IMG/VR virus record: IMGVR_UViG_3300031227_000340
Location: 1 to 27,021 of that record
Reading direction: 5' to 3' (one strand)
DNA length: 27,021 nucleotides
Origin: a virus
In this document: piece after piece, positions 2,569 to 25,337 of the stretch
Position numbering within the stretch: position 1 is the first letter of the stretch
Layout of the letters: each line of letters begins with the position of its first letter
Program-made: the position numbers and the translations under genes
Notes under the pieces: generated by a model
The model's database searches: none
What the model was told of the DNA's origin: nothing
What the model saw: only the letters and a program-made list of their open reading frames with translations

Positions 2569-5223
2569 TTACCATAACCCTGTACCTCTTAATAACCGCT
2601 CAACTTCTAACACCTGTGATTCTGCATCTACAAGACCAAGTGTTCTATCATCTATTTTTATAATGTCATAGATATTATCAATCCACCCTTTTCTATTTTC
2701 TGAATATCCAGACATTGTCATTGTAAATTGCTCGCTCATTTTTCGCCCGGCCGTTTTTGCGTGCCCGTACAAAAAAGGTGGTTTATAATTATCTTCAACT
2801 GCTGTAAATAATATTCGATTTCTGTCTACCAAAGAATGTATATATTCATGGTCTTGTATCATTGTTCCAACAAATTCTTCGCTAATATATACACCTTTTC
2901 TGTTAAACGCACTGCCATATGGCGATAATTTTGCATCTTTAACAATGCCGAAACTTAACGTATCGTCTGATTGAATTGTAGAAAACTCGCCATGAGATAA
3001 CCTTCGATATTCTCTAAATTTACCCTCTACGGGTTCAAGATTTCTTATTGCAGGTGGCATAGACTTTACTCTTTCTCCAAATCTTAATATTTCTTCATCC
3101 GTTACCGTTCTTGTTCCTAGATAAGGATTATTCGTTGTTATTCTGGGCAGATAATCCTTATTAACATTACTCACTTTGTTCAATTTATTTTTGATCGAAT
3201 CCCCTACCGGGGCCGGTATAACGCTATCACCCCAAACAGGGTCACGCTTGATAACGCTGAAGCTCTTGAAACTAGCTCCATCCTTCCACTGATTATAACG
3301 ACCATCGCCCAAAATTGAACGCTGCATTTCTTCCGGCTGTGTCTTCAGCCAACTTTCGCCACCCTGCCATTTTATCTCTTTCATTCCCTTGACAATAGGA
3401 ACGCCGGTACAGTTATGTGATATAATATGGTTACTGCTGTACCATTCCTCTTGATTTTGGAGACTATAAACATGACAAGAAAAGCACCTGACATCAACAT
3501 TAGTAACGCGATCAAAGATTATATTTCCGGCGATAGCATTGAGGATGCTGCCTCTAAATGGCACACTTCTTATAAGCGACTCGCGAATCAAATCAAGGCT
3601 CAAGGACACTTTAGGAATGAATCCGAAAGAGCCAAGATTAAGAGTATCAAAATATCCGCTAACTCTACTTGTAAACTTTCTCTTCCTGAAAGCGATATTG
3701 TTTCCAGGTACATTTCCGGCGATTCTGAAAAGGCTATCTCTATTGCTTATAATGTTTCCAGATCCGTTATAAGACGTATTCTTATTGAAAACAATATCGT
3801 TAGAAGATCCATTACTGAATCCAATAGATTGCGCGCTAGCAGAATGTCTGACTCCGAGAAAAGAACCATTATGCTCAATGCTCAAGAGTGGTGGCGCGGT
3901 AAAAAACAATCCTTTGAACATAGATGTAAGATTGCCAAAACTCGTGAGGAAAGACAATCCTGTATGTCCGCTACCGAAAAAGTGCTTTATGATATGCTCG
4001 CGATCAAAGGCATCGCAACTGTTCCACAAAAAGCTATTGATAAATATAACATCGACCTTGCCATCTATCCTGTCGCGATAGAGATTTTTGGTGGATTCTG
4101 GCACGCTTCCAAGACTGGTCATATTGAAAGAACTCGGTATATTCTCAACAAGGGTTGGAACATGGTTTTTGTTTGGACTCATTCCAGTAGAAGTCCGCTC
4201 TCCGATGTTGTCGTTGAGTACATCATCACCTTTCTTGATGAACTTAGCAGGAATCCATCCACGCTGAGTCAATATAGGGTGGTTCGGGGTGACGGGAAGG
4301 AACTTTCCAGAGGCAGTGTTAATGACGACAATATCTCCATTGTAGCTAATGGTTTCGAAGGCAGTCGGTGAAGAGGATGCTATTAAGTTGCCTTCAACCT
4401 CTGCTCTTCCGTTAGGATGATCCGGTATAGGTTCTGTAACTGGATAAACTGTACCCTCATCAGCCAGGCACCCAACGCACACCCTGCTATCATGTGCCGT
4501 TAGTCTCTTGTGACCCTTGACCAATCCTGACTGTTCATAACTCTGTGCGCTTACTTCCCTGTATACTCTCAATTGCTCAGTTCGCGCTATTGTCATTGCC
4601 TTATTCAATCCACCAGTCAGATCTGCTTTCATCAAGCCAGCCGTTACAGATGGATTACGACCTAACGCAGTACCATCTATTAGCGTGTTGGTCAATCGAT
4701 TCATTACGTCCCATGATGTATCTTTACTAACTACGTTCACGGTTAATCGTTCTTTTAGTAAGTTGCCAAGCGGTTTACCGTTCCCAGCAATACCGGCCAT
4801 GTTCTGGACCGCCTCAATCGGCAACCTTTCAAAATATGGCATTATAGATCCAACATCAGAATAGACCGCGCTCATTGCCTGATATGATTGATCCATTCCT
4901 AACTTAGCCATTTGCGCTTGACCTGTTGTCGTGAAGTCTGTAGCCCATACAGCGTACTTCTGGTATTCAACCTGCGTTTGCGATAATAGCGATCTATACC
5001 TATCCATATTATACAATTTAGACCGTGACAGCGTTTTACCTGCCAATGATAAATCATAGGCTTCTTGAGCCAGCAATCCAATCTTGTCCCGCAATGTGCG
5101 CTCGACCTGTAACCACGCCTGAGCCATCTCTTGCATTTGACGGTGTTCACGGGCCAGCAGTTCGATCTTGAATAGCCGCATTGTTTGAACAACTACGGGA
5201 TCATCTATTGGATATTCGGGCAT
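2569..5223 (-). CDS. MuF-type head morphogenesis protein interrupted by an intein, with a C-terminal zincin-like domain
   Basis: 884 residues. Residues 1-273 are the N-extein: a helical MuF/SPP1-gp7-type region ending in ARTEQLR, THx-like TAHDSRVCVGC and DHPNGR. Residues 274-604 are an intein (separate entry). The C-extein restarts CTGVPIVKG, so splicing would rebuild HPNGRC, the counterpart of the conserved HPNCRC of MuF proteins. The C-extein (605-884) is longer than a plain MuF tail and holds HEYIH at 792-796 with a later SEQF (E831), a zinc-metallopeptidase (HExxH...E) signature. It follows the portal gene by three bases. MuF proteins are minor head components, and some carry C-terminal effector domains. 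The metallopeptidase call is inference from the motif. Confidence 0.85.
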   Translation of the reverse strand: MPEYPIDDPVVVQTMRLFKIELLAREHRQMQEMAQAWLQVERTLRDKIGLLAQEAYDLSLAGKTLSRSKLYNMDRYRSLLSQTQVEYQKYAVWATDFTTTGQAQMAKLGMDQSYQAMSAVYSDVGSIMPYFERLPIEAVQNMAGIAGNGKPLGNLLKERLTVNVVSKDTSWDVMNRLTNTLIDGTALGRNPSVTAGLMKADLTGGLNKAMTIARTEQLRVYREVSAQSYEQSGLVKGHKRLTAHDSRVCVGCLADEGTVYPVTEPIPDHPNGRAEVEGNLIASSSPTAFETISYNGDIVVINTASGKFLPVTPNHPILTQRGWIPAKFIKKGDDVLNDNIGERTSTGMSPNKNHVPTLVENIPSSFNMTSLGSVPESTKNLYRDRIDGKVDVIFINSFLWNSCDAFDREHIIKHFFGSGHTGLSFLTSFGNLTSMFKGLFFTAPPLLSIEHNGSFLGVRHSASAQSIGFSNGSSNDIVFNKNTSYNGSGNIISNRDSLFRIAGNVPGNNIAFRKRKFTSRVSGYFDTLNLGSFGFIPKVSLSLDLIRESLIRSVPFRGSILNAIAGNIIFDRVTNVDVRCFSCHVYSLQNQEEWYSSNHIISHNCTGVPIVKGMKEIKWQGGESWLKTQPEEMQRSILGDGRYNQWKDGASFKSFSVIKRDPVWGDSVIPAPVGDSIKNKLNKVSNVNKDYLPRITTNNPYLGTRTVTDEEILRFGERVKSMPPAIRNLEPVEGKFREYRRLSHGEFSTIQSDDTLSFGIVKDAKLSPYGSAFNRKGVYISEEFVGTMIQDHEYIHSLVDRNRILFTAVEDNYKPPFLYGHAKTAGRKMSEQFTMTMSGYSENRKGWIDNIYDIIKIDDRTLGLVDAESQVLEVERLLRGTGLW
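3418..3426 (+). promoter_or_regulatory. Extended -10 promoter candidate for the antisense endonuclease
   Basis: Plus-strand TGATATAAT is a perfect -10 with a TGn extension. It lies 45 bases before the ATG at 3472. A TTGACA at 3389-3394 is 26 bases upstream, too far for a normal -35, so the site would act as an extended -10 promoter. It overlaps the end of the intein coding sequence. Confidence 0.45.
3472..4371 (+). CDS. Vsr-like homing endonuclease encoded antisense inside the intein
   Basis: The only convincing plus-strand gene: 299 residues from ATG 3472, with GGAG nine bases upstream. Residues about 8-45 and 72-112 hold two resolvase-type helix-turn-helix units (DYISGDSIEDAASKW and RYISGDSEKAISIAYNVS). 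The C-terminal nuclease has SATEKVLYDML (E169), NIDLAIY (D195), AIEIFGGFWH (E204, H211), then R220 and a GWNMVFVW strand. This is the Vsr/EDxHD homing-nuclease arrangement. The gene lies entirely within the intein coding sequence on the opposite strand, with codons in exact antisense register. Its roughly 15 Leu and 37 Ser codons never use TTA, CTA or TCA, which would be stops in the intein frame. It probably spreads the intein by cutting intein-free alleles. Confidence 0.85.
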   Translation: MTRKAPDINISNAIKDYISGDSIEDAASKWHTSYKRLANQIKAQGHFRNESERAKIKSIKISANSTCKLSLPESDIVSRYISGDSEKAISIAYNVSRSVIRRILIENNIVRRSITESNRLRASRMSDSEKRTIMLNAQEWWRGKKQSFEHRCKIAKTREERQSCMSATEKVLYDMLAIKGIATVPQKAIDKYNIDLAIYPVAIEIFGGFWHASKTGHIERTRYILNKGWNMVFVWTHSSRSPLSDVVVEYIITFLDELSRNPSTLSQYRVVRGDGKELSRGSVNDDNISIVANGFEGSR

Positions 5224-6531: not shown

Positions 6532-7200
6532 TTATCCTTGTGACACTTTGTCACTAATAAACAGATTAGGTTGCATCTGCGCTTCGGCTATTCGCTTCTC
6601 GGCTATCTTGAAATATTGTTCATCTATCTCAATCCCGATGAAGTTTCTACCTGTCTGCACGCAAGCCACGCCGGTTGTTCCCGAACCCATGAATGGGTCA
6701 AGGATGGTATCGCCTGGTTGCGTGTAATTTTGAATAACCCAAGTCATTAGTTCTGATGGTTTTTGTGTTGGATGGTATTTTATATCTTTACTGTCCTTTA
6801 TAAAACCTCTGTTTCGTAAAGTGAATTTTCTGGCAACTTTATTAAGAGAACACCATGCCATCTCCACATCAGCAAAAGGCGCTCCATCTTTCATTGAGCC
6901 TAACTTATCCCAAACTAGCCAGCAGTTAGTTGGCGGCAAATAATCTGTAAAATAGTTACCGCCCCAAATAACCTGCATATTTGATAATCTTTGTAATTCA
7001 TAGAAATATTCTTTTGATGGGCGGTTGTCCCATGATACGCTTTCTGCTTTAACGCCGTTTTGAGGGATTGTTCCAAAACTGTTTGAGCCACGCGCCCACT
7101 TTTTCCCATACGGCGGGTCAGTTACCACAGCGTCCACACTCTTGTCAGCCATGCCCTTCATCACTTCTAGGCAATCACCTTGTATTAGTTCAACAGTCAT
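6532..7200 (-). CDS. DNA methyltransferase (N6-adenine or N4-cytosine, beta-type motif order)
   Basis: 222 residues from ATG 7200, which overlaps the terL stop as ATGA, with AAGGAG upstream. Catalytic motif IV DPPY is at 28-31. HPTQKP lies at 143-148, and the AdoMet-binding DPFMGSGTT at 168-176. The order catalytic motif then AdoMet motif is that of the beta class. It modifies phage DNA, probably as protection from host restriction; the target site cannot be read from sequence. A 25-bp stretch of its 3' end (6565-6589) recurs exactly at 18727-18751. Confidence 0.9.
6540..6554. repeat. Palindrome GTGACA-N3-TGTCAC before the portal gene
   Basis: GTGACACTTTGTCAC lies inside the last codons of the methyltransferase, just ahead of the portal ribosome binding site. 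The same 6-base arms occur at 23518-23536, extended there to 8-bp arms. It could form a small RNA hairpin or be a protein site. Confidence 0.4.
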
Positions 7201-8435
7201 CCTTGATAGCTCCTTGCTACCTGCTTCTGTTTCCATTCACGGTTATAGGCATATCGCAACCCGTCAATTAGATGATTAACCTTGTCTACCGGCTTCTTAA
7301 TACTGTTGCCGTCCTTATCTTTTTGCCATTGGTACTGTTGAAACTCCATGATCATATTCACGCAGTTCTTGTCTACAAATATCTTGTTCTGCTGCAACCA
7401 TTGGATCCCATGTAAGATACTATCTGCGCCCTTCTCGGTTGCCAACGCTCTAACGCCATGATTCTTTAATTCTTGTATCGATTTTGGTTCAGCAGAATCG
7501 CAATAGATGTAATCCTGGTCGATCATCCTAATAACTTCTTCTGCAAGTATATCATTTGTCAATCCACGCTCGTATAACTCATCGAAGATATATATTTCCT
7601 TCTTTGCAGCATTCCTAGCTGTTACGAGTACTGCAGCCGGGTCAGCAGCGAATCCGAAGTCAAGGCCATTATGGAATGTGTCATATCGTTTCCTGGTATC
7701 GGATAAGTCAACAACTTTCCAATTCTTGAAGATGACATCACCGAGCGTCCCCCACAGTCCCAAAGTATAAACATTGTAGAAATATTCATCTGTCTCATTC
7801 TCAAGGTCTGCAATGTCCTCTGTTGTCAGATATTCATTATCTTTATAGGTCGTTTTCAGGACGAGTAGTTTGTCAGTATCTTTTACTGTCTGCTCATCGT
7901 CCCAATTCTTGAAATAAGTAGAATAGATCCAATGTGTTTGCAGTATAGGGTTGAAACTCATCGTCAACCGTTTAGGCTTTTCACTCTTACCACGTTGCCG
8001 CTTATATAGTTGCTTTACAGCGTCGTGGTTTGTCTCTGTAGCTTCTTCCACCCATATATCAGTTATAACGCCATTCTCAGGCGTCATTGATTTCACCTTC
8101 TCTACATCATCAAGCCCTGAGAACATAATCTGATAACCATTCGCACAAGTGATTATTAACTCGGACTTATTGATATTGAAGAACTCGCTCAGGCCCCAAT
8201 CACGAATAACCTTGACTATCTCGTTATACACTGAGCGTCTGATAGTTCTGCCAACAGCCCTGCATACCAGGTAATTACGACCACCTGCAAGAACATCCTC
8301 TACTGTACGCTGTGCAAGAAACACTGACTTACCTGAAGACGATCCACCAAAGAATATCTGCGTTCTTTGTGAATCCTTTATGTGCGAGTAATATATTTTA
8401 TTATAAAGGCCAGGATCAATCGTTATCTTTTGCAT
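7197..8435 (-). CDS. terL: Terminase large subunit, PBSX-type
   Basis: 412 residues. ATPase: Walker A GGSSSGKS at residues 30-37 and Walker [10 protein letters not shown] at about 126-134. Nuclease: acidic residues in [12 protein letters not shown] (D259), IYCDSAEP (D313) and HLIDGLRYA (D391). It packages DNA into the head with the portal. It overlaps the small-terminase gene by 20 bases and hands over to the methyltransferase by an ATGA overlap. Complete in length and motifs. Confidence 0.93.
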
Positions 8436-14776: not shown

Positions 14777-15030
14777 CACTCCTCCCTTCCCACCGGCAAG
14801 TCCCACACCTCGTCACCGATAACCTTCTCGTATATGTCATCGTCGGGCATGATCACGTTGCGCACGTCGCAGTTCTCGACGTGCGCCCAATATAGCCCGG
14901 CGGAGTCTACGGTGCTTACATTCCACTCACTTATACTCGCGTATAATAAAAACGTATCATAATACGCTTGTGCTATCGGACATCGACCGGCGGGGGACTT
15001 CTCGAATAGTGTCTGCTGGATGCTAATCAT
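14776..15030 (-). CDS. Hypothetical protein, 84 aa
   Basis: Start ATG 15030 (MISIQQTLFEKSPAGRCPIA) is preceded by GGGAGG at six bases; the upstream in-frame start lies deep in the preceding gene. It has an acidic C-terminus (VIMPDDDIYEKVIGDEVWDL). No family recognised. Confidence 0.6.
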   Translation of the reverse strand: MISIQQTLFEKSPAGRCPIAQAYYDTFLLYASISEWNVSTVDSAGLYWAHVENCDVRNVIMPDDDIYEKVIGDEVWDLPVGREE

Positions 15031-15220
15031 GGGAGGCCTCCCTATCGTAGAAATATACCTCTCCGATCTTACTGGAAAACACAAATCTATCTCTCGGCGC
15101 TAATTTAGAAGTATCACCTCCGATGACTATCACAGTATTATCTTTTGGTATTTCTATAACCGGCATGAAACAATCTGTAACTATTTCGATACCATCTAAA
15201 ACACAAAGATATTTACTCAT
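15023..15220 (-). CDS. Hypothetical beta-rich protein, 65 aa
   Basis: Start ATG 15220 (MSKYLCVLDGIEIVTD), with AGGTGG about five bases upstream, inside the end of the preceding gene. Predominantly short beta strands (CFMPVIEIPKDNTVIVIGGD). No family recognised. Confidence 0.6.
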   Translation of the reverse strand: MSKYLCVLDGIEIVTDCFMPVIEIPKDNTVIVIGGDTSKLAPRDRFVFSSKIGEVYFYDREASHD

Positions 15221-15680
15221 CATTTCCACCTTTCATCGTCATCTTTTTAACTAACCGTTCAATCTCAATCCTCATCTCTTCAGACATTTCAGTTTTAGGA
15301 CGGGCATTTTTAGCGCGTACCATGTCCTGACGTGCAGATTCAACGAGGGATTGACCGCCGTACCATTCATAACCTGCGATAATTTCTAACCAGCGTTTCT
15401 CGTTATACACTTCAGCGAATTTCAGCTCTGCATGTTCATTCTGTAAAGCCTGTACCCGCGCCGCATTCAACTGGTTACATGCGACAATAACCTCATTCAG
15501 CGAGGGGAACCATTTAGCGGTCTTGATAAGCATATCCACCGAATCTTTAACAACCTCATCCGTGAACTCCGACAATATCTCAAGCCACAAGTCGGACATG
15601 GCCTCGGGGTCGCTGGTCCGCGCTGCTGAATAGGCGACGGATAGGCGATATAACAATTTTGTTATAAGTTGTTTATTCAT
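15213..15680 (-). CDS. Replicative helicase loader-like protein (G39P-like)
   Basis: 155 residues. The N-terminal half fits phage helicase-loader proteins: MNKQLITKLLYRLSVAYSAA, then DLWLEILSEFTDEVVKDSVD, then KTAKWFPSLNEVIVACNQL, matching the pattern W...L.....(x)A......FPS..E. The rest is helical and charged, with a basic C-terminus. It would load the host or phage DnaB-type helicase. It lies near a wHTH replication protein. The first 11 codons are duplicated at 16382 in a chimeric ORF. Family call is by pattern only. Confidence 0.65.
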   Translation of the reverse strand: MNKQLITKLLYRLSVAYSAARTSDPEAMSDLWLEILSEFTDEVVKDSVDMLIKTAKWFPSLNEVIVACNQLNAARVQALQNEHAELKFAEVYNEKRWLEIIAGYEWYGGQSLVESARQDMVRAKNARPKTEMSEEMRIEIERLVKKMTMKGGNDE

Positions 15681-15681
15681 T
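15649..15681. repeat. 33-bp direct repeat, copy at the helicase-loader start
   Basis: Covers the start codon region of the 15213-15680 gene. An exact copy lies at 16351-16383. Flanks differ on both sides. Confidence 0.9.
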
Positions 15682-15694
15682 CTTAATCCTCTCT

Positions 15695-16312
15695 CTAAAA
15701 ATATATTCCATTCATCATTTCGTGCAGTTTCACGACAAGGTTTACGTCATTTTCTACGTACTTCCGTAATGTCTCTGCGTCCATGTCTTTCACTTGAGAA
15801 CCTTCCAAATCAGGAAGTGGGTTGTCGATACCGTAACGCTTGCATACCCATTTAAGCCCCTTAGCCTGTCCCCAGTTATAAAGTATTCCCATTAAGTCAC
15901 ATGTTGGCTCTGTCTGATATTTAGCCAGGTGTGGCCTAATCGGGACCTCGATACCCAATGCGAATGAACGGCGGAGAAGAAATGGCAAGTCAAAACCAAT
16001 GATGTTGTACCCGCATGAATGGGCGTTTGTTTCGGCAAACCTATTCCAAAAGAATATAATGACATCTCTTTCCGTTGCCTCGTTTCTGTTAATAGAAATA
16101 ATTTCTTTTCCAGAAACCGACAATCCAATAGCCGCAACTTTGCCAGTGTCCGGGTCGAGTGCTGCCTTCTCCGCTTGCTCTATTCTTTTGGTTACGATGT
16201 ATGCTGCTATCTTTTCCGCGTCCTTATAATTGGCTGGCGCGGTTGGTTCAGGAAGCATGTCAATGGCCTCCTGGTTCGCTGTTGTCTCAATATCGAAAAA
16301 TAATGTGTCCAT
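15695..16312 (-). CDS. DEDDy 3'-5' exonuclease (copy 2)
   Basis: 205 residues. Exonuclease motifs: FDIETT (D7, E9), GYNIIGFDLPFLLRR (D108) and YVENDV (Y185, D189), giving a DEDDy active site as in the PolB-type exonuclease family. No polymerase domain is attached. It is clearly paralogous to the gene at 20723-21334, with near-identical blocks such as NKRIEQ/TKRIEQAEKAALDPDTG and LKWVCKRYGIDNPLP, but differs in the 68-90 region. It sits between two recombination repeats (16316-16383 and 15649-15681), so it may have arrived by module exchange. Confidence 0.85.
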   Translation of the reverse strand: MDTLFFDIETTANQEAIDMLPEPTAPANYKDAEKIAAYIVTKRIEQAEKAALDPDTGKVAAIGLSVSGKEIISINRNEATERDVIIFFWNRFAETNAHSCGYNIIGFDLPFLLRRSFALGIEVPIRPHLAKYQTEPTCDLMGILYNWGQAKGLKWVCKRYGIDNPLPDLEGSQVKDMDAETLRKYVENDVNLVVKLHEMMNGIYF

Positions 16313-16315
16313 AAC

Positions 16316-16351
16316 CTTACTCCTCTCTCTCTAATAATGCCTTGAATGGGT
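16316..16351. repeat. 36-bp direct repeat, copy in the chimeric ORF
   Basis: Exact copy of 16946-16981, which encodes the last codons and stop of the wHTH replication protein. Here it is fused to the helicase-loader start. Confidence 0.9.
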
Positions 16352-16382
16352 ATAACAATTTTGTTATAAGTTGTTTATTCAT
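16317..16382 (-). pseudogene. Chimeric mini-ORF: helicase-loader start fused to replication-protein end
   Basis: 21 codons from ATG 16382 to TAA 16317. The first part, MNKQLITKLLY, is identical to the first 11 residues of the gene at 15213-15680. The second part, PFKALLEREE, is identical to the last 10 residues of the gene at 16947-17696. Both halves are also identical at DNA level (33 and 36 bp). It looks like the junction left when two related module arrangements were joined. It may be translated but is unlikely to have a function of its own. Confidence 0.8.
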
Positions 16383-16383
16383 T
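16351..16383. repeat. 33-bp direct repeat, copy in the chimeric ORF
   Basis: Exact copy of 15649-15681. It shares its first base with the end of the 36-bp repeat, so the two meet at a single base, which marks the recombination point. Confidence 0.9.
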
Positions 16384-16737
16384 TAGTACCGTCACTAACA
16401 TCGCCTTACACTTCTGCGCACATGTGGCGTGGACAAGGTCGAAAATGTAATCCTCTGGCCAGCCGTCACCTCGAACAGTCTCGAGCAAGTTATCTATATA
16501 TTCTTCAGTCAGCCCAAATTCTTTTATCCTTTCTTCCGCAATGGAACAGTGAGTATAATTATTGGCTGGGGAAAAATCATCAACGATGTTGCCATTCCAA
16601 TCCCTCCATACTTTCCACGTTGGCCATCCTTCGTATGCTGACGGATACTCGCATTTTTTCCACTCCATCACCTTCAGCGCAATACCATTGCTCAGTTCGG
16701 CGGGGGTCATCTCGCTAATAACTAATGACTTATTCAT
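16375..16737 (-). CDS. ABA-sandwich-like phage protein, 120 aa
   Basis: Starts MNKSLVISEMTPAELSNGIA. It has a Trp-rich centre (EYPSAYEGWPTWKVWRDWNG), then NNYTHCSIAEERIKEFGLT and a C-terminal ATCAQKCKAMLVTVLNE that matches the end of phage ABA-sandwich domains (AT...RC.A.L..L). Function unknown. The stop lies within the 33-bp repeat. It belongs to the module that occupies this slot in one of the two parental arrangements. Confidence 0.6.
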   Translation of the reverse strand: MNKSLVISEMTPAELSNGIALKVMEWKKCEYPSAYEGWPTWKVWRDWNGNIVDDFSPANNYTHCSIAEERIKEFGLTEEYIDNLLETVRGDGWPEDYIFDLVHATCAQKCKAMLVTVLNE

Positions 16738-16943
16738 CGTTTAACGCCGGTTCTTATTTCATGTTGTTCGGCCACTTCAAACGCGCATTCAAAATATTTC
16801 TCTGGCGCTTCTTCGTTGTTTGAATCCGGCTCAAGAGTCCAGAAAGTATCTTCGGCCAACGATGTTGAGTTGACTTCTCCGGTTAATGGATCAATATGAT
16901 CTTCAATATTTTTTCGCATATATTGTCTAATTTTAATACTCAT
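16734..16943 (-). CDS. Small acidic hypothetical protein, 69 aa
   Basis: Starts MSIKIRQYMRKNIEDHIDPL. Acidic, with LEPDSNNEEAPEKYFECAFE and a polar end EQHEIRTGVKR. Its stop overlaps the next gene's ATG by four bases. No family recognised. Confidence 0.6.
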   Translation of the reverse strand: MSIKIRQYMRKNIEDHIDPLTGEVNSTSLAEDTFWTLEPDSNNEEAPEKYFECAFEVAEQHEIRTGVKR

Positions 16944-16945
16944 CT

Positions 16946-16981
16946 CTTACTCCTCTCTCTCTAATAATGCCTTGAATGGGT
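16946..16981. repeat. 36-bp direct repeat, copy at the replication-protein end
   Basis: Encodes the last ten residues and stop of the 16947-17696 gene. An exact copy lies at 16316-16351. Confidence 0.9.
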
Positions 16982-17696
16982 TGGCGTCCTTCTTGGGTGA
17001 TGCGCGGCCCCAGTTCGGCAGGGCTTTACTCAGCGCTGATATGGTGTTGCCCATTGTCATTCCCTTTTCGGCTGCCCATTCCACAGCCTGGTATATTATC
17101 TTATCATCAAAATCATCCCGGAATGATAAGACTTTTTTTATCTGCGTATGATTCTTATAAGGTTGCTCCAACTTATCCGAGATAGTTTTTAGGTACGTTT
17201 CTATTTCTGGAGTACGGTTGGGAAGTGAATCTGCGTTATTTTCGGTGATTATCTTCTTATTATTATTAGACTTAATATTAGTATTCTCTTCTATTAACTT
17301 AACAGTGATTTCATCTTGCATTACTCTAGCATTACTCTGGATAACTTCTAGAGTAGGGTCAGGAATAATCGAGGGGGTTTCCCTTTCCTTTTGTAACCCT
17401 ACTTGGTTCTTCTCAAAACCAGGAAAATAAATAAACTTATCCCCGTCAGCTTCATACAAAACTATAAGACCAGCATCATGCCAGGCTTTTATATATCTTT
17501 CTATTTGGTCGATTGTTACGTCGGTTCTTCTAGGAAATACTTTCGATCTTACAATAGCCGGATCTCCATAAGTTCTACCTTCACGGTCTGCGTGTGTGAC
17601 CAACCATGTAAAGGCTAGTATCGACCAGGGATCGTCAAGGTCATTTACCACCTTGTCTAAACATATTGAGTTTGATATAAACCTACCTTTTGCCAT
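16947..17696 (-). CDS. Winged-helix phage replication initiation-like protein
   Basis: 249 residues. The N-terminal domain is typical of phage replication proteins of the DnaD/O type: MAKGRFISNSICLDKVVNDL, then WSILAFTWLVTHADREGRTYG, IVRSKVFPRRTDVTIDQIER, WHDAGLIVLYEADGDKFIYF and PGFEKNQVGLQKERE. A poor-complexity linker (about 130-165, Asn/Lys-rich) leads to a small C-terminal domain with YQAVEWAAEKGMTMGNTISA. It would bind the origin and recruit the helicase loader. The start lies within the end of the upstream HNH gene, where GGAAATAGGATTT gives a ribosome site. Confidence 0.75.
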   Translation of the reverse strand: MAKGRFISNSICLDKVVNDLDDPWSILAFTWLVTHADREGRTYGDPAIVRSKVFPRRTDVTIDQIERYIKAWHDAGLIVLYEADGDKFIYFPGFEKNQVGLQKERETPSIIPDPTLEVIQSNARVMQDEITVKLIEENTNIKSNNNKKIITENNADSLPNRTPEIETYLKTISDKLEQPYKNHTQIKKVLSFRDDFDDKIIYQAVEWAAEKGMTMGNTISALSKALPNWGRASPKKDANPFKALLEREE

Positions 17697-18552
17697 AAAT
17701 CCTATTTCCTTTACTCAAGTTTTCCTCTGCTGTTATTACCTGCAAATTCCATGGTACATGAAAGCCGCTAACTTTCTCGCCTTGCAATGGTACGATGTGG
17801 TCTACATGATACTGAATGCCGGTCTCTTTTGTTAGACAGTCTCTTTCTGTGTAGAATGCTTCTATCTCTTCTTTATACTTATTGTCAAAAGGTCTATTTA
17901 GTTTTAATGCGCGGCGTTTTGCACAAAGAGCTGCATACTTGTCAGAATTGTTTTGTTTATATTTTTTATTAGTAGCTGCCCTCATTTCCTTATTAACTTG
18001 TTGGTATTTTCTTATATCTTCTTTATGTTCTTGGTAGTATTTTTTCTTACGATCCGCAATCTGACCAATGTGTGCTTGTCGATATTTTTTCTCACGTGCT
18101 TCTATCTTTTCTTTATTATCCTGGTAATATTTTTTATTATAAAATGCTATATCATCTTTACATTCTTGATAGTATTTCCTCATGCGCACTGATATGTATT
18201 CTTTGTTTTCTTGTCTGTATATCCTTCCACTAATCGCGCGCGCTTCTTTATGTTCTTGATAATATTTCGCTATCTTCTCTTTATTATCTTGTAGATATTT
18301 TTTAATTTCTTCTTTATGTCCTTGTCTGTATTTCTTGGCATAAGCTATTTTATTTTCTTTATTTTCATGGTAATATCTATTTTTAGAAACTAATATTTCT
18401 TCTCTATGTTCTTTGTAGTATTTCTTATTATGCGCTACTATTTCTTTTTTATTGTCTTGTCGGTATTTATTCTGATATGCTGCTAATTCTTCTTTATGTT
18501 CTTGCGCATACTTTTTGTTATATTCTGCCTTCTCATCTTTGCTGTATGTCAT
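17683..18552 (-). CDS. HNH endonuclease with tandem Tyr/Lys-rich N-terminal repeats
   Basis: 289 residues from ATG 18552, with AAGGA eight bases upstream; a TTG further up is not needed. Residues about 5-225 are roughly a dozen degenerate units of about 15 residues, such as KKYYQEHKEEI and KYRQDNKEKI, forming a long charged helical repeat. The C-terminus has the HNH motif YHVDHIVPLQG, then HVPWNLQVI and a final NLSKGNR, at about 248-282. It is probably a free-standing mobile endonuclease. It has its own consensus promoter and a structured leader, unlike its neighbours. DNA of the repeats is very AT-rich. Confidence 0.88.
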   Translation of the reverse strand: MTYSKDEKAEYNKKYAQEHKEELAAYQNKYRQDNKKEIVAHNKKYYKEHREEILVSKNRYYHENKENKIAYAKKYRQGHKEEIKKYLQDNKEKIAKYYQEHKEARAISGRIYRQENKEYISVRMRKYYQECKDDIAFYNKKYYQDNKEKIEAREKKYRQAHIGQIADRKKKYYQEHKEDIRKYQQVNKEMRAATNKKYKQNNSDKYAALCAKRRALKLNRPFDNKYKEEIEAFYTERDCLTKETGIQYHVDHIVPLQGEKVSGFHVPWNLQVITAEENLSKGNRIYGKR

Positions 18553-18572
18553 CTTGTTGATCCTTGTAACAA

Positions 18573-18668
18573 AATAGAGCTGTCTATTGTTTTTGAGTTT
18601 TGGCAAACATCAAACGCATTATAGACAACTCTACTTTATCAAAAACAAAATGCGTTACAATGTTTGCC
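18573..18668 (-). promoter_or_regulatory. Structured 5' leader of the HNH gene with two competing inverted repeats
   Basis: GGCAAACAT (18602-18610) pairs with ATGTTTGCC (18660-18668), and ACGCATT (18614-18620) with AATGCGT (18649-18655), giving a long interrupted hairpin. A second pair, TAGAGCTGTCTAT (18575-18587) with ATAGACAACTCTA (18621-18633, one mismatch), uses bases in the loop of the first. The two folds could coexist as a pseudoknot or compete. The second lies just before the ribosome binding site, as an attenuator would. Confidence 0.55.
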
Positions 18669-18708: not shown

Positions 18709-18751
18709 CTACTCCTTATCCCACAAATTAGGTTGCATCTGCGCTTCGGCT
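18709..18751 (-). pseudogene. 3'-terminal remnant of a DNA methyltransferase gene
   Basis: Read in the right frame, this piece encodes [13 protein letters not shown] and a stop. The first eight residues equal the C-terminal AEAQMQPN of the methyltransferase at 6532-7200, and 25 bp (18727-18751) are identical to 6565-6589. An in-frame TAA lies immediately upstream, so nothing more of the methyltransferase remains. It is a recombination scar placed between the Cys-rich gene and the HNH promoter. Confidence 0.7.
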
Positions 18752-18964
18752 TACAATATATGGTTTCGTTGCGCCGTGTCCACAACAAGCTGATTCGACA
18801 TTATCCAAATGACCTAAACATGCGTCATATCCTTCTATTGTCGGCATTTTGCCACATCTAGCGCACATGCGATCAATTGTTGCATCATCTCCATTGTCCT
18901 TATACACCCACTTTGAATTTATAAACACGATTGGATAACCTCTTGTATATGACTTAGCTGTCAT
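18728..18964 (-). CDS. Cys-rich CCGHG-motif phage protein
   Basis: 78 residues from ATG 18964; longer ORF starts overlap the preceding gene. It contains RMCARCGKMPT, then YDACLGHL and VESACCGHGATKPYIV, a cysteine pattern seen in many small phage proteins (CxxCGxxPT...CLG...ACCGHG) and probably binding zinc. After YIV the frame enters the methyltransferase remnant and adds SRSADAT before stopping, so the natural C-terminus was probably replaced. Function unknown. The ribosome binding site is weak. Confidence 0.65.
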   Translation of the reverse strand: MTAKSYTRGYPIVFINSKWVYKDNGDDATIDRMCARCGKMPTIEGYDACLGHLDNVESACCGHGATKPYIVSRSADAT

Positions 18965-19127
18965 TGTAATGCCAAGTATCTTCAGTTTTCTCTTCGATGG
19001 AACCGCCATATTTGCAAAATATTTCAAAAAAATCACGCTCAATCTCTTCATCAGATTTACTGCCAAATACAGCCTCCCATGCAAATTCCCTCCAATCCTT
19101 ACGTTCAACATCTAGCTCATCCATCAT
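18954..19127 (-). CDS. Small acidic hypothetical protein, 57 aa
   Basis: Start ATG 19127 overlaps the upstream TGA (ATGA) and has GAGGAGAAGGA just before it; it reads MMDELDVERKDWREFAWEAV. Helical and acidic with SDEEIERDFFEIFCKYG. No family recognised. Confidence 0.6.
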   Translation of the reverse strand: MMDELDVERKDWREFAWEAVFGSKSDEEIERDFFEIFCKYGGSIEEKTEDTWHYNDS

Positions 19128-20722: not shown

Positions 20723-21334
20723 CTAAAAATATATTCCATTCATGCGCTCATATAACTGTACGCACAAGTTAACGTCGTTCTCTACATATGCCTTCAGTGT
20801 ACCAGCGTCCATACCCGAAACCTGCGAACCTTCCAAACCAGGAAGTGGGTTGTCGATACCGTACCGTTTACATACCCATTTCAACGATTTCGCCTGTCCC
20901 CAGTTATAGAGTATCGCCATCAGGTCGCAGGTTGGATCTGTGCGGTATTTTGCTAACACTGGACGTAATGGAACTGCGATTCCTAAATCGAACGACCTGC
21001 GGAGTAAGAATGGAAGATCAAATCCGATAATGTTGTATCCGCATGATTGCCCGTTAGATTCTGCAAACAAATCCCAAAACAGCTCGATAATATACTTTTC
21101 AGAATATGTGGCGTTGACAATTCCCGAGTGTAGTTTTCCCGCATCCATAAACCCAATAGCAACCACCGTGCCTGTATCTGGGTCTAGCGCAGCTTTCTCT
21201 GCTTGCTCAATTCGCTTGTTTGCTATACATGCCAAAATCTTGTCCTCGTCTTTATAATTGGACGGGGCTGCTGGTTCTGGCAACATTTGTATCGCCGTTG
21301 GATCTGCTGTTGTCTCAATATCGAAAAATAACAT
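20723..21334 (-). CDS. DEDDy 3'-5' exonuclease (copy 1)
   Basis: 203 residues; ATG 21334 with GAGAGGAG upstream. Motifs: FDIETT (D5, E7), GYNIIGFDLPFLLRR (D106) and YVENDV (Y183, D187). It belongs to the same stand-alone PolB-type exonuclease family as the gene at 15695-16312 and shares long identical blocks with it. Likely role: DNA end processing for recombination or proofreading in trans. The gene following it encodes the KPGAEKL protein. Confidence 0.85.
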   Translation of the reverse strand: MLFFDIETTADPTAIQMLPEPAAPSNYKDEDKILACIANKRIEQAEKAALDPDTGTVVAIGFMDAGKLHSGIVNATYSEKYIIELFWDLFAESNGQSCGYNIIGFDLPFLLRRSFDLGIAVPLRPVLAKYRTDPTCDLMAILYNWGQAKSLKWVCKRYGIDNPLPGLEGSQVSGMDAGTLKAYVENDVNLCVQLYERMNGIYF

Positions 21335-21349
21335 ATCATACTCCTCTCA

Positions 21350-21541
21350 CTATTTAATAATTATATCACTAGCCTTTACAACGATTGCCTCAACTGCATA
21401 CTCGATAACGTGTCCTGCGATAAATGGCTTGCCTTCCTTCGCGCAGATGTCGGCCATCATAACGCCGTTTATAATTCTCTCTGCGAGGACTTCCACCTCA
21501 ACTAACTTTCCATCCCATCCTGGATAATATGATTTCATCAT
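21350..21541 (-). CDS. Small hypothetical protein, 63 aa
   Basis: Start ATG 21541 overlaps the upstream TGA as ATGA; a GTG at 21568 was rejected for lack of a ribosome binding site. It reads MMKSYYPGWDGKLVEVEVLA, then GVMMADICAKEGKPFIAGHV. Beta-rich and small. No family recognised. Confidence 0.6.
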   Translation of the reverse strand: MMKSYYPGWDGKLVEVEVLAERIINGVMMADICAKEGKPFIAGHVIEYAVEAIVVKASDIIIK

Positions 21542-23583: not shown

Positions 23584-24330
23584 CAACGGCTTAACATCAC
23601 GTTGCAATATCTCGTACACCTTCTGCTCGTTGGTCAACTGTCCGGTGTCATCGGACGGATCGGGGTCTTTGCCAAGATATGCGTACAGGCTAGACAAATC
23701 ACCCTGCCAGCGGTTATAGTCTAACATCTTACTCTCAACGCCAAATCCGAGAGTATGGTCGCCTGTCTGATGAATGATGCAACGATCCCGATCAACACCT
23801 TTGGGATAATCGTGGTCCCTGGTTCCTGGCGCCCAAGTCAATCCGGTGTGCTCTTGCCCATTTGAGAAATATTGAGCAAGCCACCAATCATAATTGTTGT
23901 ACTCTACATCATACGTACAATAATCATCAATAATGTTTGCTCTGCTGTAATTTATTGGTTTTCTTCCAGTTTTAGATTCAATGTATCCATCTGCTGAAAG
24001 TAAAGAGTCTCGCATCTGATTCTTACTACAACCGTGCACCAGCTCGAAATCTAAGGTTAGTGGCATCTCTCCCAAGTCATCACCGACTATGGTTAGCCAT
24101 CTATCCATCTGTGCTTTGATAGGTTGCGCCGGATATAAAACATGGTAAGCTGTTCTTGCAATACCGACCCGCTTTGCTTCTGTCCAATTCCTGTTGAACC
24201 ACTTATCTGTGTAGCCCCATGAAATACCGGAACGAATGCCGATGAACTCTACCTTCGGCTCATGCGCTGCGATAACGTCAAAGTCTACCTTACCCTGATA
24301 AGATGATATGTCAAGCCCGAATGGTAACAT
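23578..24330 (-). CDS. GH25 lysozyme (endolysin)
   Basis: 250 residues from ATG 24330, which overlaps the upstream stop as TGATG with GGAGG eight bases ahead; a GTG at 24345 is less likely. GH25 landmarks are GLDISSYQGKVDFD (D7), FIGIRSG, ARTAYHVLYP and the catalytic LTLDFEL (D94, E96). NYDWWLAQY and IIHQTGD near the C-terminus are the usual closing strands. It cleaves peptidoglycan between MurNAc and GlcNAc to release phage. The tail (about 220-250) could hold a small linker-binding segment but no recognised repeat. Confidence 0.92.
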   Translation of the reverse strand: MLPFGLDISSYQGKVDFDVIAAHEPKVEFIGIRSGISWGYTDKWFNRNWTEAKRVGIARTAYHVLYPAQPIKAQMDRWLTIVGDDLGEMPLTLDFELVHGCSKNQMRDSLLSADGYIESKTGRKPINYSRANIIDDYCTYDVEYNNYDWWLAQYFSNGQEHTGLTWAPGTRDHDYPKGVDRDRCIIHQTGDHTLGFGVESKMLDYNRWQGDLSSLYAYLGKDPDPSDDTGQLTNEQKVYEILQRDVKPLL

Positions 24331-25283
24331 CAGTCCAACCTCCACGCCTCGCAGATGTTCGCATTTATCTCTGTTAATTCAAGGCATATATCGTCTAACG
24401 CCGAGATCAGTTCATCATATGATGCTGCGGGCGGGGTAATGGGGTCGGGGATTACGGGGGGATCTTCGGGGCCGGGTGGATCAACGGGGGGAACTATAAC
24501 GGGGGCAGCGTCCCAATGTTTAGGCGTGCCGAACCGTTCTAATAATTGTCCCTCATTCCCCAGATAAACAATCCTGATTGACGCCATGCCATTAGTTGAA
24601 TAATCAAGGAAATATTTATGCGCCCACATAATAGATTCGTTACCCGCTAAACTACCTGGTCTTGGCGGTTTCGTTCTACCTTCCGGTTCTTCAGGCGTTG
24701 GCACGCCTTGAATTGCATCCATGACAAGAACGATGTGCGGGAAGTCAGGTTGTCCGATAATGTTACCAACCGAACCGCTTCCGTACTCCCAGAACTTTGA
24801 ACTCATAGCAATAACTTTTGGTTGGTCTACGCCCATAATGGATAACACGGTCATAAAACCCCGCAATGCTTCGGCGTGATTGCCGTCTGTGTCATCATTT
24901 ATATGTCGCATTGCTATTGCCACACCTTGCACGGAACTTTTTAGCATATGCGCCAATGACCTATATTGTAATCCTGCGCCTGGTGTTTTCCAGTCCACCG
25001 AGTAGGTGTCGGGTTTACTTCTCAACCCGTGCCAGAATATCGGTATCAATCCATTGTCATAAGCCTTCTGCAAATTAGCGTGTGCTGAAGGGTCGCCGTA
25101 TTTTCTAGGGTCATTGAATGCGCCCTCTTGTATCTGCGCTGCGTCAGACGCCCTGATGACAACGAAACTTGCACCGTCATCCTTTGCCCTTGCGAAGTCT
25201 ACTTCAATCTTTCCGCTACCATTGATGTTATTCCCCTGTACGTAAAAGCCCCAGGGATTATTAGGGTATGCTATTGGTGCCAT
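24330..25283 (-). CDS. GH25-like fold protein without the catalytic pair
   Basis: 317 residues from ATG 25283, with GAGAGGAG upstream. Residues 1-230 follow a GH25-like barrel: WGFYVQGNN, VDFARAKDDGASFVVIRASD, YDNGLIPIFWHGLR, then VQGVAIAMRHIND where an active enzyme would have DxE. A Pro-rich linker (VIVPPVDPPGPEDPPVIPDP) and a helical tail (LDDICLELTEINANICEA) follow. The lost DxE suggests a binding or structural protein rather than a lysozyme. It is paired and translationally coupled with the true lysozyme. The fold call is by eye and moderate. Confidence 0.55.
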   Translation of the reverse strand: MAPIAYPNNPWGFYVQGNNINGSGKIEVDFARAKDDGASFVVIRASDAAQIQEGAFNDPRKYGDPSAHANLQKAYDNGLIPIFWHGLRSKPDTYSVDWKTPGAGLQYRSLAHMLKSSVQGVAIAMRHINDDTDGNHAEALRGFMTVLSIMGVDQPKVIAMSSKFWEYGSGSVGNIIGQPDFPHIVLVMDAIQGVPTPEEPEGRTKPPRPGSLAGNESIMWAHKYFLDYSTNGMASIRIVYLGNEGQLLERFGTPKHWDAAPVIVPPVDPPGPEDPPVIPDPITPPAASYDELISALDDICLELTEINANICEAWRLD

Positions 25284-25308
25284 ATAAAACTCCTCTCACT
25301 ATGTAATT

Positions 25309-25337
25309 ATTATACAATATCTTAAGTATATTTACAA
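25309..25337 (-). promoter_or_regulatory. Promoter for the GH25-like / lysozyme pair
   Basis: Minus-strand TTGTAA (25337-25332), 17-base spacer, TATAAT (25314-25309), about 26 bases before the ATG. Perfect -10. It lets the lysis pair be transcribed apart from the tail genes. Confidence 0.75.

Follow-up and report, generated by a model that had tools for sequence, protein, structure and literature searches.

Duplicated gene ends set back to back between two groups of cargo genes: a probable recombination scar in a virus of bacteria

Introduction

The addition of genes to phage genomes has usually been argued from boundaries that are old and eroded. The closest precedent for the locus described here, and a closely similar one, is that of the near-identical mycobacteriophages Island3 and Brujita; gene 68 of Island3 is present in one of the two phages and lies beside a short duplicated gene end of 18 residues, about 50-60 bp, and addition of the gene could not be distinguished from its deletion (PMC3029335). 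Two other described systems are related in part. In temperate phages, relaxed homologous recombination of the Rad52-like kind produces mosaics that share little sequence, and the work on it is reported to favor recombination at diverged homology (PMC3945230). The PeSL cassettes of T4-type phages consist of a conserved short stem-loop sequence between genes that is tied to the shuffling of cargo (PMC4503421).

Here we analyze a 27,021-base virus record (IMGVR_UViG_3300031227_000340), referred to below as the window, in which short exact duplications of flanking gene ends, of 33 and 36 bp, lie beside added genes much as in Island3 and Brujita. In the mycobacteriophages one flank is duplicated and both phages are known; whereas in the window both flanks are duplicated, the copies stand back to back, two different cargos are kept, and neither parent was found. 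Like the Rad52-type mosaics the window has a join with little shared sequence, but that join shares a single base rather than diverged homology; and unlike the PeSL cassettes as described, the sequences involved are the ends and starts of genes, and the associated palindrome has two copies only. We found no published scar with both flanks duplicated and both cargos kept in the open-access literature searched, which cannot prove absence. If the junction is real, the flanks of both donors can be read to the base, and because they are still readable a one-step non-homologous join in coding sequence becomes visible before it decays. Such joins would be tolerable because the last codons of the replication-initiation gene (rep) hold a ribosome-binding site, so that whichever gene comes next is ready for translation. 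The junction would then be an ordinary outcome of gene shuffling among phages, though an instructive one.

Results and discussion

The genes concerned all lie on the minus strand, in the order HNH gene, rep, SG1, SG2, a chimeric mini-ORF, EXO2, and loader. The rep gene (16947-17696) encodes 249 amino acids, and its product matches PHROG replication-initiation families (PHROG 1408, E 4.5e-12). The loader gene (15213-15680) encodes a 155-residue helicase loader of the G39P type (PF11417, 25.4 bits against a cut-off of 22). Between them lie cargo A, consisting of SG1 (16734-16943; 69 residues) and SG2 (16375-16737; 120 residues), neither of which gave a Pfam, PHROG, or NCBIfam match at E<=0.05, and cargo B, consisting of EXO2 (15695-16312; 205 residues), a PolB-type 3'-5' exonuclease (PF10108, E 4.1e-9). 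A second exonuclease of this type, EXO1 (20723-21334, minus strand), was identified by Pfam and PHROG searches and by sequence comparison. The G+C contents of SG2, EXO2, loader, and EXO1 are similar (44-45%) and those of SG1 and rep are lower (39-40%), so composition is not informative. The ORF preceding rep (17683-18606, minus strand) is HNH/endonuclease VII-like and contains many short degenerate repeats.

Two exact direct repeats link these genes, one of 33 bp (15649-15681 and 16351-16383) and one of 36 bp (16316-16351 and 16946-16981). The sequence-only reading had held that the two repeats meet at one base and there join the start of the loader gene to the end of rep, and this was confirmed: base 16351 is common to both. 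Among exact direct repeats of the window they are surpassed in length only by an array of 93-bp tandem units at the contig end (26649-27020), which lies within a repetitive ORF; 100 dinucleotide shuffles gave none longer than 17. There are no differences between repeat copies over 69 positions. Where they meet, the copied loader start and the copied rep end form an ORF of 21 codons (16317-16382, minus strand) with the translation MNKQLITKLLYPFKALLEREE*, in which loader residues 1-11 are followed, in frame, by the last 10 residues of rep and a stop codon.

The boundaries of the repeats coincide with functional features of the genes. The 36-bp sequence begins inside the last codons of rep and extends through GAGAGAGAGGAGTAAG, which is the predicted ribosome-binding site of SG1 at one copy and of EXO2 at the other; thus the true rep end (16946-16981, minus strand) carries GAGAGAGAGGAG, the ribosome-binding site of SG1, and the copied end (16316-16351, minus strand) supplies that of EXO2, so that SG1 and EXO2 each begin directly behind an identical rep end. 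The 33-bp sequence spans one base before the loader ATG to codon 11. Its true copy (15649-15681, minus strand) opens the loader gene; its second copy (16351-16383, minus strand) contains the last codons and stop of SG2, and its end coincides exactly with the edge of an 18-nt palindrome. SG2 can be aligned end to end with a protein of Paenibacillus phage PG1 (29%, full-length) with coincident C-termini, and therefore was not cut by the join but has its natural end. The palindrome occurs at two sites in the window only, and was accordingly rejected as a widespread site. Exact inverted repeats of its class number five in the window versus 0 to 4 in ten shuffles, which we take as no more than a hint that the palindrome may have been involved in the break.

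The sole close relative found (IMGVR_UViG_3300018080_001892; G001) has largely the same gene order and resembles the window at 82% in TerL, 72% in portal, 54% in loader, and just 37% in rep; it likewise has an HNH gene immediately before rep. Its rep-loader joint is occupied by a DNA methyltransferase gene of the N6/N4 type (Pfam), each flank being present once, which bears out the earlier proposal that this joint holds differing cargo. It has one exonuclease, located upstream in the place of EXO1, and a shortened SG2 homologue elsewhere, and its loader start does not conserve the 18-nt palindrome. The methyltransferase ends within the loader start, as SG2 does, which makes SG2 a plausible original neighbor of loader. 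No near-identical relative with single flanks and without the added genes was found. The same relative contains a 75-bp exact duplication (locus L023, 4698-4772 and 5960-6034), nearly exact over about 120 bp; the duplicated unit is a 41-codon gene ending in a ribosome-binding site and stands on both sides of a stretch containing a putative cytosine-methyltransferase-like ORF. This parallel and independent case indicates that duplication of a flank around cargo is not unique to the window within the group.

We searched 93 loci using models derived from these very proteins, whose own records therefore match by construction. Both rep and loader were present in six records: Moorella phage MCACPph1, the relative just described, a further contig (L013), and three near-identical contigs (L010, L011, and L012). 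In the five more distant records nothing lies between the two genes, and in the sixth (G001) the methyltransferase does; neither an exonuclease nor SG1-SG2 occupied the joint in any of the six. The loader assignments in Moorella phage, L010, and L013 are probable ones that draw on position and weak similarity (for Moorella, 27.6%, E 8e-3). In L010 to L013 an exonuclease follows 0.7 to 1.1 kb after loader, so that exonucleases flank the module on either side in different lineages.

Wider searches yielded the same relative or nothing. Single-protein searches with rep and with loader gave no viral-contig relative, and two-row alignment searches with each matched G001 only. The loader alignment found nothing in 396 genomes of one class, nor did TerL at E<=1e-60 in the 396, although an empty result of this kind proves nothing unless a positive control accompanies it; a DNA search of phage records with positions 14800-18000 gave no match. 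Among the matches listed in one genome scan and three viral-contig scans, no exonuclease lay between rep and loader. The search for relatives with one copy of each flank, which the sequence-only reading had suggested, thus produced G001 and none with the exonuclease or SG1-SG2 in the joint. Exonucleases 63-65% identical to EXO2 occur, among the matches listed, on contigs titled Chloroflexi, Leptolinea, and Ornatilinea (L032-L039), which also include one contig from a Micrarchaeota MAG, probably stray. An Anaerolineae host was considered because of these exonucleases and rejected; since loader and TerL were not found in the genomes searched, we claim no host.

The join had also been offered as an explanation for the duplicated exonuclease. 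EXO1, EXO2, and the exonuclease of the relative show 72% amino acid identity in every pair, and a DNA difference of 31% separates EXO1 from EXO2, with a third-position identity of 48%; on these values we rejected a recent duplication of EXO1 as the source of EXO2. As EXO1 and EXO2 are 31% apart whereas the scar shows 0 differences in 69, EXO2 had already diverged when it arrived; the explanation holds to the extent that a diverged EXO2 came with the join, but not as a recent copying of EXO1. In the protein tree EXO1 and the exonuclease of the relative are sisters with support of 86/89; the AU test gave p 0.16 against pairing EXO1 with EXO2, and the codon tree was undecided. EXO1 and EXO2 are identical over 26 nt near the start (16278-16303 and 21306-21331), versus 69% overall, and over 21 nt at the end (15695-15715 and 20723-20743), nearly so beyond the stop, possibly a mark of local gene conversion. 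A 34-bp leader (88%) containing a TATAAT-like box and a ribosome-binding site occurs in two places only, before EXO1 (21332-21365) and before the ORF at 24330-25283 (25281-25314).

The most economical account, to which we give a probability of about 0.6, is that two near-identical phages, or two copies of a single genome, with different cargo in the joint were recently joined by a non-homologous event, which left as its scar the 68 bp now separating SG2 from EXO2. Parent A would have had the order rep-SG1-SG2-loader and parent B the order rep-EXO2-loader. The loader of A would have broken within its codon 11, where the palindrome has its edge, and the broken end would have been attached to B's rep roughly ten codons before the end of that gene. 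No more than one base would have been shared, and the product would hold both cargos in series with one intact copy of each flank. The two molecules, with their different cargo, might have met, for example, in a mixed infection. We infer the two parents, the single step, and any role of the palindrome. Because the break shares one base only, the join was non-homologous and not a crossover at homology; the term unequal crossover, which the sequence-only reading had used, fits the outcome but not the mechanism. Of the two relatives which that reading had postulated, sharing both flanks and differing in cargo, the copying of both flanks and the anatomy fit a join of A to B; neither parental arrangement, however, was found in the collections searched. 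Given 0 differences over 69 positions the parents, if there were two, must have been near-identical at rep and loader, and by the rule of three the divergence of the scar is bounded at about 4%, a dating that would be less secure if the copied stretches were under selection. The near-equal lengths of the repeats (33 and 36) count against the exchange model, which leaves them to coincidence.

An extension of this origin, which we consider unlikely, is that the joint between rep and loader is a cargo slot, allelic within one phage species, and that the genome is a reversible double-loaded state. If so, annealing across the 33-bp repeat would remove EXO2 and exactly restore rep-SG1-SG2-loader, and annealing across the 36-bp repeat would exactly restore rep-EXO2-loader; all three forms would coexist, and either gene set could be dropped without damage to the flanking genes, allowing added genes to be tested.

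The same two scraps would also be yielded without a second parent by tandem duplication within one lineage, from the end of rep to the start of loader, followed by replacement of the cargo in one copy, and for copies within one genome the 0/69 differences would be natural. This course requires at least two steps plus exact removal of the duplicate cargo, and the repeat search showed no SG1-SG2 remnant beside EXO2 and no EXO2 remnant beside SG1-SG2; we therefore think it rather improbable. Somewhat less probable again is an assembly artefact, in which the assembler placed end to end two strain variants with alternative cargo that had formed a bubble in its graph, each branch retaining shared flank of similar length; in that case the two parental forms would both exist, and the junction and mini-ORF would be spurious. 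Near-equal repeat lengths with one shared base are the pattern expected of overlapping graph branches set end to end, and the record is a virus contig for whose junction no second, independent record was found. However, assigning the shared base either way gives 33+35 or 32+36, and hence no common overlap length, and a join made by a graph assembler would have to be covered by reads. That the fusion is in frame weighs neither way, as 1 in 3 would be so by chance.

Had EXO2 arrived as a circular or mobile cassette that inserted at the loader start, duplicating the flank and using the palindrome as a special site, the break would fall where it is seen, at the edge of a palindrome present at these two places only. 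We hold this to be very improbable: no end repeats were seen, no recombinase was recognized among the families searched in a subset of the window ORFs, the palindrome is missing from the loader start of the relative, and the end of rep is also duplicated, so that the two repeats belong to two different genes, unlike a simple target duplication. The view of the mini-ORF as a functional gene of long standing, or as a leader controlling EXO2, has least of all to commend it, for although it is in frame and well placed between its neighbors, every codon derives from loader or rep unchanged, homologues with substitutions of their own, which the sequence-only reading had named in advance as what would refute the exchange, were absent from the 93 fetched loci (the best match, 9 of 21 residues, being the loader start of G001 itself), and the surrounding RNA is predicted to fold no more stably than shuffled sequence (z 0.55). 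The mini-ORF is most likely a by-product of the join. Since its start overlaps the SG2 stop and its stop adjoins the EXO2 ribosome-binding site, it could serve as a small bridge for translation into EXO2, its tail providing what is predicted to be a strong ribosome-binding site.

Several further features of the window were observed. A Mu F-like head gene (2569-5223, minus strand) contains an intein (PF14890 and PF04233, both below curated cut-offs); the corresponding gene of the relative has no intein. Antisense within the head gene, and so leaving both strands open, lies a 314-residue ORF (3427-4371, plus strand) whose matches, to restriction-endonuclease-like and HTH families, are weak. The 3' end of a methyltransferase gene (6532-7236), positions 6561-6589, is copied at 18723-18751 (25 bp exact, 29 bp at 97%), where it sits in another frame at the end of the ORF at 18728-19111 and is possibly another recombination scrap.
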